Source: an uncultured Propionivibrio sp.
Lineage (GTDB): Bacteria; Pseudomonadota; Gammaproteobacteria; Burkholderiales; Rhodocyclaceae
Direction: 5' to 3'
Assembly: GCF_963666255.1 (NCBI RefSeq)
Contig: NZ_OY762656.1
Span: 1-64,000 of the forward strand
Length of the DNA stretch: 64,000 nucleotides
The translations under genes were made by a program, and so were the position numbers. The notes below the pieces were generated by a model. It ran no database searches. It was not told the DNA's origin and was given only the letters and a program-made list of their open reading frames with translations. Positions 14,180 to 22,188 of this stretch are shown here, piece after piece (the stretch's first letter is position 1; each line of letters starts with the position of its first letter).

Positions 14180-17100
14180 TCAATCAATCAGCAGCATCAA
14201 GGCGTTGAATTCGTCGAACAACCGATCGACGTGCGCCTGCAGCCTGCCCAGCCGCGCCTCGACTTCGTCGCTGCCCCGGCCTTCGCGATGCGCTTCGAGT
14301 ATCCGCTCGGCCAGCGCATTCGCCGTCAGATGACACGACTCAAGAGAGTCCAGATGTCCGGCTGCAGCCGGATTTGCCGCCCTCAACGCGCGCAGACACT
14401 GCGACAGACGGCATTTGCCATGGTCATGAACCGGCCGCTCGCCCTGGCCGCGCAGATAGGCTGCCAGCGCCGCCACCCAGGCGCGATGCTCGATGATGGC
14501 GAACAGCGGCGGCAAATGTTCGCGGCGCAGCGCCCGCACGCCCAGCCATTGCGGGTCGGGCTGCCAAGTCGAGATCCAGCCCGGCACGTCGGCAGCCGGC
14601 ATCGGCACGGCGATGCCGTAGCCCTGCGCCAGATCGCAGCCCAATTGCTGCAGCAGGCGCCCGTGCGCAACCGTCTCGACACCTTCGGCGATGACCTGCT
14701 TGCGGAAGGCGCCGGCCATGCTGATCATGCCTTCGAGGATGGTCAGGTCATCGGGATCTTCGAGCATGTCGCGGACAAAGCTCTGGTCGATCTTGAGCTG
14801 ATTGACCGACAGGCGCTTGAGATAACTCAGCGAGGAGTAGCCGGTGCCAAAATCGTCGAGCGAGAAATTCACCCCGAACTCCTGGCATTCGGCGATGATC
14901 CGGCACACGCCGGCCATGTCTTCGAGCGCGCTGGTTTCCAGGATTTCGATATCGAGCCGCTCGGCCATGATATCGGGATATTCCGCGAGAATGGAACGCA
15001 AGCGTTGCGCGAAATCGCGCTGCTGCAACTGGCGTGCACCGACGTTCACGCTGACAGCGAGTTCGACGCCGTCCTTTTGCCACGCCTGCAATTGGGCCAG
15101 CGCCGTGCGGATCACCCATTCGCCCAGTTCGATCGCCAGCGGCTGGTTCTCGACCACCGGCAGGAACAGGCCGGGTGGCACCAGACCGCGCGTCGGATGC
15201 CGCCAGCGGATCAGCGCCTCGACGCCGACGACGGCACCGCTGCCCATGCTGACCTTGGGCTGGTAATAGAGCACGAACTCTCCGGCGGCCAGTCCGCGGC
15301 GCACATCTTCGATGCTCTCGTGAATGTCGCGAACGCTGCGATGCAGGTCCTGATCGAAGATGTGGTAACGGTTCTTGCCAAGCAGCTTCGACTGGTACAT
15401 GGCCTGATCGGCCTGGCGCATCAATTGATCGGCATTGACCTCCTCGGCCTGCGGATAGAACGTGACGCCAAGGCTGGCGGTCACCTGCAGGGCTATGCCA
15501 TCGACGGTATGCGCCTGCGCGGCGGCATCGAGCAGCCGATTCAGCAGGGGCACGCAATCGGCATTGTCGCCGAGATCCGAGATGACGGCGACAAACTCGT
15601 CGCCACCGATCCGCGCCAGCGTATCGACGTCACGCAGCGTCAGCCGCATGCGGCTCGACAAGGCTACCAGCAGGTCGTCGCCGACCTTGTGGCCATACGT
15701 GTCATTGACCGCCTTGAACCCGTCGAGATCGAGGCAGACGACGGCAACACGCCGTTTGTGCCGGTTGGCCTGCGACAAGGCCTGCTGCAGGCGGTCGGCG
15801 AGCAGCACCCGGTTCGGCAACGTCGTCAGCAGGTCATAATGCGCCATCTGCCGCAGCTGCGCCTCGTGCTCCTTCATCGGCGTGATGTCGGTAAACATGG
15901 CGACGTAATGCAGCGTCTTGCCGCTGTCATCGCGCACGGCGCTGATCGTGAGCAGCTCCGGATACAGCTCGCCGTTCTTGCGCCGGTTCCATATCTCGCC
16001 TGACCAGAATCCGGCCTCGATGAGATCGCGCCACATCGCCGCATAGAATTCAGGCGGATGGTGTTCGGATTTTATGATGCGGGGATTGCGCCCGAGCGCT
16101 TCTTCGCGGCGATAACCGGTGATACGCGTGAAGGCCTCGTTGACGTCGATGATGGTCCCGTCGGCGGCGGTGATGGTGATGCCCTCGCGGGCATGCGAGA
16201 AGACGCTGGCGGCGAGCTGCAGTTGTTGCTCGCTCTGCTTGCGCGCATCGATGTCGGCGATGACGCCGACCAAGCCCTGACGCACGTTGTTGGCATCGAA
16301 CAGGCTGCGGCCGTTGAGATGCCCCCAGAACAAGGATCCGTCCGAGCGCCAGTAGCGCCGGTCGGTATCGACCGCGGTGATTTCGCTCGAAAGCAGCTTG
16401 AGCATGCGCTCGCGTCCGATCTCGCGTTCGCTCGGATGGACGAGATCGACATAGGGACGTCCGACCAGCGAGTCGTCGGGATAGCCGAACATTTCGTGCA
16501 TGCGCCGGTTGGCCAGCGTGAGGCGGCCTTCGAGGTCGACGAGGAAGATCGCCACGCTCGAGGTATCGAGAATCTGGCGCAACAGTGTCTTGCGCTGGCC
16601 GAGGTTCTGCAGCAGCGTATTGAAGGCGGTCACCAGCTGGCCGATCTCGTCGTTGCGCACCACCGGTAGCGGCTGTTCCTCGCCCGACGCCTCCGAGAAG
16701 CTGCCGAGCGCTTCGGTCGCGTCGATCAGTGGCGCCACCTGGCGCTTCAGGAAAAACCAGATGAACGAACCGGCCAGCAGCGTCAGGACCACCGTCGCCA
16801 GCACGATCCGCCGCTCCATTTCGCGGATCGGCAAGAAGGCCTCGTCGGTCGGCAACAGCGCGGCGACATACCAGCCGGCAGACGGTATCCCTTTGGCCGA
16901 TGCCAGCATTTCGCGACCATGCTGATTGACGGTCACGCCGAAGCCCTCATAGCCGCCGATAAAGCGGTCGATCAGGGAGATCTGGCCCGGCGGCGGTAGC
17001 GACTCCATGACACGTGCCTTGTCAGTTGCCGTCGCCACCAGGCGCAGGCGCGGTACGACGAGCAGATAGCCACCGGTACGGCCGTATTGCACTGTCGTGA

Positions 17101-17713
17101 TCTGGTCGAGGAAATTGTCCTTTTCCATATTGACGACGCCGGCCAGCATGCCAATGACGTGGTCGCCGCGATCACGGATCGGCACCGCGATAACGACGAT
17201 CGGCACCTTGAGCGTGCGCCCGACGATCGGGTCGCTGATGACCGGCCGGCCTTCGCGCAGTACGATCCGCGCGTATTCGCGATCGCTGTAGTTGACGCCG
17301 ACCCGCTCGGGCGCGGTTGGCACCGCGGCAATGGCAACGCCGTCGAGCCCGGTCGCGAAGGTGCCGCCGTTGAACTTGGCCTCGATATCCTTCCATCGGT
17401 CGAGATGCGCCTGCATCGCCGCCGGTCCGGCCTGCATCGCCGCGCCGGCCTGGTGCGCCACTTCGTCGAGTGCAATCACGCGATCCGAAAATTCGTGATT
17501 GACGCGGTCGGCGACCAGCGTCACCGTCGAGAACTGCTGTTCGCCGAGCAGGCGGACCATGTCGCCACGCAGGTAATGGCTGGCATAAAAAGTCAGCGAC
17601 CAAATCCCGGCGACAAAAATCGCCAGCGTCACGACGATGGTCTTGGTGCGCAGCGACCGCCACGACACGCGCAACACGTCAAGCACACGGGATACGCCGG
17701 GAAACGGGCTCAT
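14180..17713 (-). CDS. Cache-HAMP-PAS-PAS-GGDEF-EAL protein with CZB-like C-terminus
   Basis: A large membrane sensor (about 1177 residues) that can make and/or break c-di-GMP. In order: membrane helix (about 25-45), periplasmic Cache-like sensor (to about 300), second helix, HAMP-like linker, two PAS domains (about 385-630), GGDEF with RIGGDEF and an RDVD I-site, then EAL with GVEALIRW, DDFGTGYSS, QLKIDQSFV and EGVET, so both catalytic sites look intact. The last 100 residues begin HRAW and contain DHGKCRLSQ and two further His (GHLDS, SCHLT), the pattern of a chemoreceptor zinc-binding (CZB) domain. ATG 17713 is used; GTG 17722 is possible. It is a single gene, convergent with the liv operon. 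The CZB call is by motif only. Confidence 0.85.
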   Translation of the reverse strand: MSPFPGVSRVLDVLRVSWRSLRTKTIVVTLAIFVAGIWSLTFYASHYLRGDMVRLLGEQQFSTVTLVADRVNHEFSDRVIALDEVAHQAGAAMQAGPAAMQAHLDRWKDIEAKFNGGTFATGLDGVAIAAVPTAPERVGVNYSDREYARIVLREGRPVISDPIVGRTLKVPIVVIAVPIRDRGDHVIGMLAGVVNMEKDNFLDQITTVQYGRTGGYLLVVPRLRLVATATDKARVMESLPPPGQISLIDRFIGGYEGFGVTVNQHGREMLASAKGIPSAGWYVAALLPTDEAFLPIREMERRIVLATVVLTLLAGSFIWFFLKRQVAPLIDATEALGSFSEASGEEQPLPVVRNDEIGQLVTAFNTLLQNLGQRKTLLRQILDTSSVAIFLVDLEGRLTLANRRMHEMFGYPDDSLVGRPYVDLVHPSEREIGRERMLKLLSSEITAVDTDRRYWRSDGSLFWGHLNGRSLFDANNVRQGLVGVIADIDARKQSEQQLQLAASVFSHAREGITITAADGTIIDVNEAFTRITGYRREEALGRNPRIIKSEHHPPEFYAAMWRDLIEAGFWSGEIWNRRKNGELYPELLTISAVRDDSGKTLHYVAMFTDITPMKEHEAQLRQMAHYDLLTTLPNRVLLADRLQQALSQANRHKRRVAVVCLDLDGFKAVNDTYGHKVGDDLLVALSSRMRLTLRDVDTLARIGGDEFVAVISDLGDNADCVPLLNRLLDAAAQAHTVDGIALQVTASLGVTFYPQAEEVNADQLMRQADQAMYQSKLLGKNRYHIFDQDLHRSVRDIHESIEDVRRGLAAGEFVLYYQPKVSMGSGAVVGVEALIRWRHPTRGLVPPGLFLPVVENQPLAIELGEWVIRTALAQLQAWQKDGVELAVSVNVGARQLQQRDFAQRLRSILAEYPDIMAERLDIEILETSALEDMAGVCRIIAECQEFGVNFSLDDFGTGYSSLSYLKRLSVNQLKIDQSFVRDMLEDPDDLTILEGMISMAGAFRKQVIAEGVETVAHGRLLQQLGCDLAQGYGIAVPMPAADVPGWISTWQPDPQWLGVRALRREHLPPLFAIIEHRAWVAALAAYLRGQGERPVHDHGKCRLSQCLRALRAANPAAAGHLDSLESCHLTANALAERILEAHREGRGSDEVEARLGRLQAHVDRLFDEFNALMLLID

Positions 17714-17832
17714 GCCTCTCACTCACTTGCCATCGATAGACCGCTGCCCGCCGGTCGGCGGCAGTCGATCGCCATACGCGCATTGTCGCACTACCGCCCA
17801 CCTCCCGCGCAAGCCATCACACGGGTTCCTGC

Positions 17833-17861
17833 AAAAAAAAGGGCATCGCCAAGCGATGCCC
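17833..17861 (-). terminator. intrinsic terminator of the enolase gene
   Basis: On the minus strand a perfect nine-base-pair stem, GGGCATCGC and GCGATGCCC with a three-base loop, is followed by eight T. It lies about 40 bases after the enolase stop and is one of the clearest terminators in the window. Confidence 0.9.
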
Positions 17862-17903
17862 TCCGCGTATTCCCCGTCGCCGGGGAAAATGACTCCGTCC
17901 TGC

Positions 17904-19520
17904 TTAGAAGCCGGCGCCCTTGATCGACTTGAGGCCCTTGTAGATGGCCTTGGCACCGAGTTGCTCCTCGATGCGGATCAACTGATTGTACTTGCAGATA
18001 CGATCGGTACGCGAGAGCGAACCGGTCTTGATCTGGCCGGCGCCGGTACCGACGGCGAGGTCGGCAATGAAGGAATCCTCGGTTTCACCCGAACGGTGCG
18101 AAGAGATCACGCCGTAGCCAGCCTTCTGCGCCATCTTGATGGCATCGAGGGTCTCGGTCACGGTGCCAATCTGGTTGACCTTGATCAGGATCGAATTGGC
18201 GGCGCCCATGTCGATGCCCTTCTTCAGACGGCCCGGGTTGGTGACGAAGAAGTCGTCGCCGACGATCTGGACCTTCTTGCCGAGCGCCTGCGTGAACTTG
18301 ACGTAGCCTTCCCAATCGTTCTGGTCGAGACCGTCCTCGATCGAGACGATCGGGTACTTCTGGCACCACTCTTCGTACTTGGCGATCATTTCGTCGGCCG
18401 TGAACAGCTTCTCGGGATTCGACTTCCAGAACTTGTAGCCCTGGCGGCCGCCCTCGTCGAACAGTTCCGACGATGCGCAGTCGAGCGCGATGGCAATCTG
18501 CTTGCCCGCCTTGTAGCCGGCGGCGTCGATCGCCTTCATGATGACTTCGAGCGCCTCGTCGTTCGAGAGGTTCGGCGCGAAGCCGCCTTCGTCGCCGACG
18601 GCGGTGACGTGGCCACCCTTCTTGAGGATGCTCTTGAGCGCGTGGAAGATTTCGGTGATCCACTGCAGACCCTGCGAGAAGGTCTTGGCACCGACCGGCA
18701 TGATCATGAATTCCTGGAAGTCGATCAGATTGTCGGCATGCTTGCCGCCGTTGATGATGTTGGCCATCGGCGTCGGCAGCACGAATTCCTTGTTCTTGTG
18801 CAGCTTGGCGATGTACTTCCACAGCGGCATGCCGCTGACATTGGCGGCAGCAACGGTGATCGCCATCGACGCGCCGAGCAGCGCATTGGCGCCGAGCTTC
18901 GCCTTGTTCGAGGTGCCGTCGAGGGCGATCATCGCCTCGTCGAGTTCACGCTGGTTGAGCGGGTTCTTGCCCTTGAGCAGTTTGGCGATCGGGCCATTGA
19001 CGGCCTCGACGGCCTTGAGCACGCCCTTGCCGAGGTAGACCTTCTTGTTGCCGTCGCGCAGTTCGCAGGCTTCGAATTCGCCGGTCGAGGCGCCCGACGG
19101 CACCGCGGCGCGCGCGAGGAAACCGTTGCTGAGCACGATATCGACTTCGACGGTCGGATTGCCGCGCGAATCAAGGATCTGACGACCGACCACCTTGCTG
19201 ATCTTGACGAAAGCCGGCACGACTTTCTTGACAACTTTCTTGGCAGCAACAGCCTTCTTGGCAACGACTTTCTTGGCGACCATTTTCTTGGCGGCAACAG
19301 CCTTCTTCGCAACGGCGGCCTTCTTCGGCGCAGCGGCCTTCTTCGGCGCAGCGACCTTCTTCACGGCGGCGACCTTCTTCACGGCAGCGGTCTTCTTCGC
19401 CGGTGCGGCCTTCTTGGCTGCAGCAACAGTCTTCACGGCAGCGGCCTTCTTGGCGGCTGCGGCGGGTTTTTTGGCAGGAGCGACTTTCTTAGCGGGTGCA
19501 GCTTTAACGACCTTGGCCAT
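17904..19520 (-). CDS. eno: enolase with lysine-rich histone-H1-like N-terminal tail
   Basis: Converts 2-phosphoglycerate to phosphoenolpyruvate. Residues from about 104 to 538 form a normal-length enolase with every catalytic element visible: [22 protein letters not shown] followed by [60 protein letters not shown] and [10 protein letters not shown]. In front lies a tail of about 100 residues made of AAKK, APKK and VAKK units, with about one third Lys and no acidic residue, like histone H1-type or AlgP-type tails. The frame is continuous from ATG 19520 (GGGATG upstream). The gene is not in the usual pyrG-kdsA-eno-ftsB setting; it has its own terminator and AT-rich promoter. The tail may bind DNA, RNA or polyphosphate; this is inference. 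Confidence 0.9.
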
Positions 19521-19576
19521 TTTTCATCCCATGAACAATAGTTGAACAAAAGTTTCTGCTGACTTACAAAAGTACA

Positions 19577-19582
19577 AGTATA
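19577..19582 (-). promoter_or_regulatory. possible -10 element for the tailed enolase
   Basis: On the minus strand TATACT lies in the AT-rich gap between the DUF190 gene and the enolase start, about 57 bases upstream of the ATG. No good -35 was seen at 16-18 bases, so the call is tentative. Confidence 0.35.
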
Positions 19583-19601
19583 TAACAAAACACTTTGGAA
19601 T

Positions 19602-19967
19602 CTAATGCTTGCCTGATTCCTCCGACGCGTTGCCAGCCGATTCGTCGGCATTTATGACACCAAACTCGACCGGGACACGCACATAGAAAACGCAAATGCC
19701 GGCATTGCGCACCAGCGACATCATCGCTTCGGCCTCTTTCGCATCGACGATGAACTCGACCTCGACCGCCGTCGAACCGGCCAATTCGAAGAACTGACTC
19801 TCGTGCAGCACATGATGCCTGCCGAAGCCGCCGATGGCACGGAACGCCGAACCGCCGCGGATACCAATGGCATTGGCCTGCTCGAGCAGCCATTCCCAGA
19901 GCAGCACACCATGATGACGCCGCCGTTCATCGACATATAGCCTGAGATACTCGCCTGTCATTGCCAT
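19602..19967 (-). CDS. DUF190 (PII-like) protein
   Basis: A soluble protein of 121 residues of the DUF190 family, related in fold to PII signalling proteins. Visible family features are LRLYVDERRRHHG near the N-terminus, the glycine-rich IGGFGRHH and a beta-alpha-beta arrangement. DUF190 genes are frequently found next to crcB, as here: crcB ends 13 bases upstream on the same strand. This suggests a regulatory partner of the fluoride channel, though the molecular role is not established. ATG 19967 is chosen; a second ATG two codons later (19961) is possible. The C-terminus is short and polar. Confidence 0.8.
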   Translation of the reverse strand: MAMTGEYLRLYVDERRRHHGVLLWEWLLEQANAIGIRGGSAFRAIGGFGRHHVLHESQFFELAGSTAVEVEFIVDAKEAEAMMSLVRNAGICVFYVRVPVEFGVINADESAGNASEESGKH

Positions 19968-19980
19968 CTCTGATTCCCTA

Positions 19981-20364
19981 TCATAGGTTCTTGAACAGCG
20001 ACACCGTACCGATACCGGCAAAGGTCATGGCGATCGAACCGACCACATGCACCGCGATGGCGCCGAAGGCCCAGACCATCCGACCCTGCTGCAGCAACAG
20101 GGTGACCTCGGCCGAGAAGGTCGAAAAAGTCGTCAGCCCACCGCAGAAACCGGTAATCAGCAGCAGGCGCCATTCGGGCGAGATCGCTGCGAACGCAGCA
20201 AAAAAGGCAACGGCAACGCCAACGACATAGGCGCCGATCAGGTTGGCCGCCAGCGTACCCGGCGGCACCGAGGGGAACAAGCTGTTGAGCTTGTTGCCGA
20301 GATACCAGCGCAGGAGCGCGCCAAGCGCCGATCCGACGGCAATCGCCGCCACCGATTTCCACAT
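19981..20364 (-). CDS. crcB: fluoride channel CrcB/Fluc
   Basis: A small inner-membrane protein of 127 residues with four hydrophobic helices that exports fluoride as a dual-topology dimer. Family motifs are present: GALLRWYLG, the Asn-bearing [14 protein letters not shown] and [13 protein letters not shown], whose Phe, Thr and Ser residues line the fluoride pore. ATG 20364 has AGAGG seven bases upstream; the ATG directly before it is possible. It is followed by the DUF190 gene. The crcB (fluoride) riboswitch consensus was looked for in the leader and not seen; an inverted repeat is there instead. Confidence 0.9.
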
Positions 20365-20395
20365 CATCGAACCTCTTCCGTCATGTCGGCGCTTT

Positions 20396-20424
20396 CCCAC
20401 AGAAACTGTGCATAAGTCTGTGGG
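20396..20424. repeat. inverted repeat in the crcB leader
   Basis: CCCACAGA (20396-20403) and TCTGTGGG (20417-20424) form a perfect eight-base-pair stem with a 13-base loop, about 30 bases upstream of the crcB start. It could be an RNA leader structure or a protein-binding site. Confidence 0.5.
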
Positions 20425-20462
20425 CGGCATGTGCCCGATCGAAAAATCCGGAATGCCGCCAG

Positions 20463-20508
20463 TGACTTGGCATCCTTGCCGAAAAAAGAGGCAAGCGGCG
20501 CCAAGTCA
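20463..20508 (-). terminator. long hairpin spanning the fadD stop codon
   Basis: TGACTTGGC and GCCAAGTCA (nine base pairs) enclose a second stem CTTGCC/GGCAAG; on the minus strand the loop contains six T. The TGA stop of fadD (20506-20508) is part of the outer stem. No T run follows the hairpin, so it may protect the 3' end or terminate weakly. Confidence 0.5.
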
Positions 20509-22188
20509 GCGCTCCTCTTTCGTCGCCGCAGTGGCGTCACGCAATTCGCGGCGCAGGATCTTGCCGACGTTCGTCTTCGGCAACTCGGTGCGGAACTCGA
20601 TCTGGCTCGGCACTTTGTAGCCGGTAAGAAATTCGCGGCAATGACGCAGCAATTCCTTCGGCGTCAGGCTTTCGTCGCGCCGCACGACGAAAATCTTGAC
20701 CGACTCACCGGTGCGTTCGTCGGGCACGCCGATCGCCGCCGCCTCAACGACGCCGTCGTGCATGACAAGAACGTCTTCGATTTCGTTGGGATAGACGTTG
20801 AATCCGGACACCAGGATCATGTCCTTCTTACGATCGACGATCCGGATGAACCCGCGCTCGTCCATGACGGCGATATCGCCGGTACGCAGGAAGCCGTCGG
20901 GCGTCATGACGTTGGCAGTTTCCTCGGGCTGGCGATAATAGCCCTTCATCACCTGCGGCCCGCGCAGGCACAATTCGCCCCGCTCGCCGAGCGCCACGTC
21001 ATTGCCGTTGTCATCGCGGATGGCAACCTCGGTCGACGGCACCGGCAGGCCGATCGCACCGGTGTACTCGGTGCCGTGGAAAGGATTGATCGCCGCCACC
21101 GGCGACGCCTCGGTCAGGCCGTAGCCTTCCATCAGCGTCAGGCCGGTCATCTTCTTCCAGCGTTCGGCAACGCCGCGCTGCACCGCCGCACCGCCGCCGA
21201 GCGTCACCTTGACACGCGAGAAATCGAGTTCGGCGAATTTCGGGTGGTTGAGCAGCGCATTGAACAGCGTGTTGACGCCGGTCATGATGGTGAAGGGCGT
21301 CTTCGCCAGTTCCTTGATGAACCCGGGAATGTCGCGCGGATTGGTGATCAGCAGGTTGGTGCCGCCGAGACGGATGAAGAGGAAGCAGTTCGCCGTCATC
21401 GCGAAGATGTGATACAGCGGCAGCGCCGTCACCACCAGTTCCTCGCCCTCGGTCACATGCTGCTTCACCCAGGCGTGCACCTGAATGACGTTGGCAAGCA
21501 TGTTGCCGTGCGCGAGCATCGCGCCCTTTGAAACGCCGGTGGTTCCGCCCGTGTATTGCAGGAAAGCGATATCATCGCGGCCGATGTCGACCGGCGCGAA
21601 CGACGCCGCGCGACCGCGCGCCATCGCCTGGCGGAAAGGCTCGACATTCCTGAGCCGCCAGCTCGGTACGACGCGTTTGACATACTTGACGACGAAATTG
21701 ACGATCGGCCCCTTGGCACCAAGCATGTCGCCCAGCCGCGCCATGACGATATGCTCGACCGGATAACGGCGCACGACCTTCATCAGCGTGCGCGCGAAAT
21801 TCTCGAGAATGACGATCGTCGTGGCGCCACAGTCGCGCAGCTGGTATTCGAGCTCGCGTGCCTTGTAGAGCGGATTGCAATTGACCACGACGCAACCGGC
21901 GCGCAACGCGCCCAACATGCAGACGGGATACTGAAGGACGTTCGGCAGCATGATCGCGACGCGTTCGCCGCGCGGCAGCTTGAGCACCGACTGGAGATAC
22001 GCGGCGAAGTCGCGCGAAAGGCGGTCGAGTTCGCCATAGCTGATGCGCGCGCCCATGCAGATGAAGGCGGTGCGGTCGCGGTAACGTTCGACGCTTTGCT
22101 CGAAGAGATCGATCAGCGAAGCATACGCCGCCGGATCGATTTCCGCCGGAACGCCCGGTTCATAGCTCTGCAGCCAGATCTTATCCAC
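20506..22188 (-). CDS. fadD: long-chain fatty-acid--CoA ligase
   Basis: Activates fatty acids to acyl-CoA using ATP, the first step of beta-oxidation. It has 560 residues, the usual FadD length. The AMP-binding P-loop is [12 protein letters not shown]; further adenylate-family motifs are [10 protein letters not shown], the TGD in [27 protein letters not shown] and the C-terminal catalytic Lys in [12 protein letters not shown] start at GTG 22188 because it gives [18 protein letters not shown], matching the conserved FadD N-terminus; a TTG nine codons upstream is less likely. It follows the helicase-nuclease gene after about 117 bases and is not grouped with other fad genes. Confidence 0.92.

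Follow-up and report, generated by a model that had tools for sequence, protein, structure and literature searches.

Tails resembling histone H1 have been described on proteins dedicated to the nucleoid or to granules, and PhaF, like AlgP, carries an H1-like tail of KPAA repeats. According to the report on AlgP of Pseudomonas aeruginosa, the repeats of its disordered-type, K/A/P-rich tail bind DNA, the protein associates with polyphosphate granules, and the tail is needed for the even spacing of these granules (PMC9239181). The tail described below resembles that of AlgP, and it shares its composition and its KK-A/P/V repeats with the Hc2 (PF07382, NF038052) and hist_H1_lk_Burk (NF038053) families. 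Enolase is known as a fluoride-inhibited enzyme. In Enterobacter cloacae FRM, an extra eno lies near crcB in a fluoride-induced operon with a riboswitch, ppaC-uspA-eno-gpmA-crcB-orf5249, and the available part of that report mentions no tail on its enolase (PMC5533749).

The gene analysed here, which we call eno2, differs from AlgP and PhaF in that its tail is N-terminal and sits on a glycolytic enzyme; the family searches matched neither an AlgP nor a phasin domain. The tailed protein is real and is conserved in two genera; within the literature searched, in the portions of the sources that were accessible (lysine-rich or H1-like tails on enolases, Accumulibacter, second enolases in Rhodocyclaceae), we found no description of it.

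A second enolase and its lysine tail

Within the window (the whole 64,000-nucleotide stretch that was analysed), eno2 occupies 17904..19520 on the minus strand, stop codon included, and encodes 538 residues in an uninterrupted frame that opens with ATG and has no internal stop. The TIGR01060 eno equivalog matches residues 107-533 with 640.6 bits against a cut-off of 300 (E 9.6e-193), Pfam places Enolase_N (PF03952) at residues 107-237 and Enolase_C (PF00113) at 246-534, and the top match of a PDB search, the enolase 1iyx, covers the same residues as the TIGR01060 match. The motifs SGAS (142-145), GDEGGFAP (309-316), IED (394-396) and SHRSGETED (474-482) are among those that do not vary across the 30 aligned enolases, and we take them to form the catalytic and Mg-binding region. 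By its conservation, eno2 should be a working enolase, and the catalytically complete enolase in one frame proposed in the initial annotation is borne out. The enolase domain (17904..19211, minus strand) is under strong purifying selection, as dN is 0.002-0.040 and dS 0.17-0.55 in five orthologue pairs. The ATG start that had been assigned to the gene stands, but the ribosome site credited to it is weak by eye (GGGATGAAAA, 5′ of the ATG). As to the gene's own terminator, a hairpin scan does place a terminator-like hairpin 3′ of eno2 (17838..17864, minus strand), although the region holds five such sites where 3.3 are expected by chance.

Searched with the enolase model, the 3.99-Mb genome (G000, in 4 contigs) yields two genes. 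Besides eno2 there is one at G000:C1:393843-395105, a canonical eno preceded by ORFs that we read as pyrG and kdsA; the earlier suspicion that the window might hold a second enolase was thus correct. Judged by sequence, eno2 has the whole fold of canonical bacterial enolase (TIGR01060; PF03952/PF00113) and its catalytic motifs, and it differs as a second copy, 55% identical to the canonical eno of its own genome, with a basic domain and a lysine tail of 103 residues. In two other genomes of the genus, G011 (92% complete) and G023 (96% complete), the eno2-type enolase is the only one found; there, it may have replaced the canonical gene, or the canonical gene may sit in a missing piece.

The tail is encoded by 19212..19520 (minus strand); its 103 residues include 33 K, 40 A, 19 V and 7 P, while R, D and E are absent. 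This agrees with the H1-like lysine/alanine tail of about 100 residues, one third lysine and free of acidic residues, that had been read from the sequence at the outset. Such an extension is presumably disordered. Its membership of the H1-like families is a different matter: PF07382 scores 12.3 bits (cut-off 40), NF038053 14.7 (80) and NF038052 11.8 (135), weak matches that lie far under the curated cut-offs, and eno2 is not a member of Hc2 or hist_H1_lk_Burk. The codon pattern GCNAARAARNNNGCN is near background across the genome, with 108 matches and 98 for the reversed control. A search of the genome with the tail alone returned the tail itself and one match at E 2.79. A separate KA-repeat protein of 261 residues, with H1/AlgP-like composition, is encoded outside the window (G000:C2:437999-438784, minus strand) and was also missed by that search, which therefore carries no information on other tails. 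The enolase tail may have come from the gene of this protein, or the two may be partners.

The presence of this separate KA-repeat protein in the same genome and the repetitive nature of the tail DNA, where an imperfect 18-bp tandem repeat spans 19285..19463 (minus strand; 9.9 copies, 74% matches), are what one might expect of an assembly chimera joining an H1-like gene to an enolase gene, which the initial annotation had named as its main alternative. Tailed orthologues in many assemblies of two genera, in which the start of the tail and the leader can be aligned, rule out the chimera, and we give it practically no weight.

Orthologues, extension and charge

Relatives have the same architecture. 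Among 28 genomes from the genus of the window (g1, G000-G027), 20 carry an eno2 orthologue (82-100% identity, that of G008 in two pieces); in its sister genus (g43, which includes Accumulibacter SCELSE-3), 23 of 28 do, of which G673 contributes a fragment and G661 a partial match. No eno2 was found in the remaining eight g1 genomes (G003, G004, G009, G012, G017, G020, G025 and G026), four of which are more than 90% complete. Across a family sample of 249 genomes from 68 genera, the 12 matches at E ≤1e-155 all fall in g1 and g43. The 20 matches at the same threshold in a class sample of 369 genomes comprise the window's own protein and 19 others at 56-61% identity, and the lysine-rich tail is absent from all 19.

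Every orthologue that was read completely (40 of 40) has an N-terminal extension, of 19-103 residues, that of the window being the longest. In g1, the extensions are 24-103 residues long (19 proteins), rich in K, A, P and V, and have net charges between +3 and +33 and no more than one acidic residue each (19 proteins, including the G008 fragment and excluding G006); in g43, they are 19-41 residues long (21 proteins), start with MAK and are of mixed K/E composition with a net charge of -1 to +1 (7 proteins). The tails of three close pairs differ by in-frame gaps only (36 + 12, 33 and 18 nt), and this, with the presence of the extension on all 40 orthologues, argues that the tail is more than chance. 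In three close pairs, one of 58 aligned lysine sites had changed, as had 15 of 139 other tail sites (Fisher p 0.043), a marginal result that is uncorrected for codon mutability and comes from an aligned stretch that includes three residues past the tail. The g1 tail thus appears to change length by gain and loss of repeats in frame, with its lysines kept as far as the marginal test goes.

The folded domain is unusual in charge even without the tail. Its median pI is 8.58 in g1 (net +1 to +8, 19 proteins; 8.40 in the window) and 6.6 in g43 (net -4 to +3, 21 proteins), compared to 4.77 for canonical enolases (net -26 to -15, n = 19). A pI above 6.5 was found in 2 of 97 other enolases, the tail-less sister L035 (9.41) and L050 (7.72). 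Because the basic character is common to L035, the basic domain probably predates the tail. The g1 proteins are cationic in both domain and tail, the g43 proteins near neutral in both; this parallel is one contrast between two clades, with no independent replicates.

We have considered whether the extension could be a neutral or mildly useful disordered segment, serving solubility, spacing or the start of translation, whose length drifts by repeat slippage, so that eno2 would simply be a spare soluble enolase. The spread of lengths across the clade, the in-frame repeat indels between near-identical proteins, the 18-bp repeat and the short, near-neutral form in g43 are all consistent with such drift. 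However, drift does not sit easily with an extension kept on all 40 orthologues, with acidic residues numbering zero or one in each of 19 g1 tails, with lysine sites that changed less than other tail sites (albeit marginally), or with an enolase domain that is basic too, and we regard this explanation as unlikely, though it merits serious attention.

Origin and neighbourhood of the gene

A tree of 156 enolases joins the 40 tailed proteins with L035 (1-1299), from a member of the Fibrimonadaceae, in one group (SH-aLRT 100) and places 19 canonical enolases, taken from g43, the window's genome and further families of the order, in a separate one (support 98). L035 has no tail and begins MAKIKNVVGR after a GGAGG site, and its genome gives no other enolase match at E ≤1e-20; the next three genomes in line, from Spirochaetota, likewise yield one match each. 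Since no further enolase was found in these four genomes, the eno2 clade appears to belong natively to other bacteria and to be a guest in Rhodocyclaceae. The grouping of the eno2 domain with a tail-less Fibrimonadaceae enolase, the sole one found in that genome, makes lateral acquisition, followed by gain of the tail, the simplest history that the tree suggests. The donor, for which Fibrimonadaceae is the nearest found, and the direction of transfer are tentative, as one close outside relative was found and it comes from a metagenome-assembled genome. In a smaller, careful tree, the 40 tailed proteins stand apart from L035 with support of only 81/89, and g43 is a clade (100/99) nested in the diversity of g1 via branches of 87-93 bootstrap; the corresponding group of 36 rows has an SH-aLRT of 96 in the 156-enolase tree. 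The placement of g43 within g1 suggests, without proof, that the mixed-charge extension derives from a lysine-rich one.

Directly upstream of eno2, on the same strand, are a DUF190 (COG1993) protein (19602..20021, minus strand) and a CrcB fluoride channel (19981..20430, minus strand). Of the 20 g1 genomes with eno2, 13, including that of the window, have crcB upstream in the same orientation; G008 among them lacks a DUF190 match. At the other g1 loci, DUF190 of G019 lies where the contig is cut, the flanks of G001 and G021 are too short, and G002, G011, G015 and G016 have enough flank and no crcB found near eno2; nor was crcB found there in any of seven g43 genomes. The other classified neighbours, besides DUF190, are an acyl-CoA ligase and a GGDEF/EAL protein. 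The gene that follows eno2 directly on its downstream side in the window (14180-17722, minus strand) encodes a PAS/GGDEF/EAL signalling protein of 1180 residues, which among the g1 regions compared is matched beside eno2 only in G005.

A promoter-like -10 box, GTTATATACT, lies 5′ of eno2 at 19577..19586 (minus strand) and follows a motif common to the g1 orthologues: with up to two mismatches, GTTGTATANTC is present upstream in 20 of 20 g1 sequences, the same 20 from which the motif was derived, and the box ends 31-59 nt from the start codon. Shuffled upstream stretches match the box equally well in 0-4 of 200 cases for 16 g1 sequences and in 19-28 of 200 for G000 (the window), G005, G024 and G008, so that the match in the window is by itself not beyond chance. 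The g43 sequences have a box of their own, GGTATGATC, in six of seven cases. A general promoter scan gave zero sigma-70-type sites on the minus strand in 17600-20700. As the g1 box is present with or without a nearby crcB, we read eno2 as probably its own transcription unit.

The position of crcB, the sensitivity of enolase to fluoride and the precedent of the E. cloacae operon raise the question of whether eno2 serves as a reserve enolase under fluoride stress, acting with the neighbouring channel, its tail being incidental. Control by a fluoride riboswitch was rejected, the Rfam model having no match in 17500-21000 of the window at E up to 1, and at the gathering threshold there was no Rfam match of any kind in 20 related loci. 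The neighbours of eno2, unlike those of the E. cloacae gene, are not ppaC, gpmA or uspA, its promoter-like box is there irrespective of crcB, and the loci of both genera that lack a detectable crcB, listed above, speak against a shared function. We therefore consider a dedicated fluoride role distinctly improbable. It would not exclude the others, however; a tethered enolase might equally be of use when fluoride is present.

What the tail may do

We suggest that an ancestor of two sister Rhodocyclaceae genera gained a second enolase from outside, possibly from near the Fibrimonadaceae, and that most genomes retained it alongside the canonical eno, putatively under its own promoter-like box. 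The folded domain is neutral to basic, unlike that of canonical enolases, and the N-terminal extension would have been added after acquisition. The tails may then hold eno2 by charge on an intracellular polyanion, be it nucleoid DNA, RNA or polyphosphate bodies, between which we make no firm choice, and the bound enzyme would constitute a second, localised enolase pool. The initial annotation had likewise suggested that the tail could tether the enzyme, to DNA, RNA, polyphosphate or the envelope; it did not mention the apparent lateral acquisition, the basic domain, the upstream crcB and DUF190 genes or the short, mixed-charge extension of the sister genus. Other enolases are oligomers; if eno2 is the same, each oligomer would present two or eight tails. 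For an acquired spare enolase with an added tail that is held electrostatically in this way, we judge the chances to be a little short of even. That a laterally acquired enolase has become, through its basic surface and a growing H1-like tail, a polyanion-bound glycolytic enzyme separate from the soluble canonical one is a proposal that we make tentatively, as possible but somewhat doubtful.

We favour tethering because the extension is on every completely read orthologue, dN is far below dS in the domain, lysine sites appear to be retained by a marginal test, the domain is basic in pI and AlgP provides a precedent. Counting against it, the near-neutral extension of the seven g43 proteins examined means that a strongly cationic tail is not a feature of the whole clade, tail length varies widely within g1 (24-103), and 8 of the 28 g1 genomes do without the gene. 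As to the ligand, all 16 g1 and g43 genomes examined carry ppk1, and PHO4/Pit-family matches number four per genome in six g43 genomes (two of the four in G069 being neighbouring pieces) versus one per genome in ten g1 genomes. The single match per g1 genome is consistent with g1 being Propionivibrio but is no proof of it. Polyphosphate as sole driver of the tail was rejected, since g43, which we take to hold a known polyphosphate accumulator, has the less cationic tail; this also speaks against polyphosphate as the only ligand.

For annotation, the name 'eno' in Accumulibacter-type genomes can mean either of two very different proteins. The orthologue series, in which tails range from 19 to 103 residues and net charges from about -1 to +33, is ready-made for relating tail length and charge to localisation. 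If tethering is true, a conserved H1-like tail on a core glycolytic enzyme whose net charge is reversed relative to canonical enolases would be a natural case of spatially organised bacterial glycolysis.
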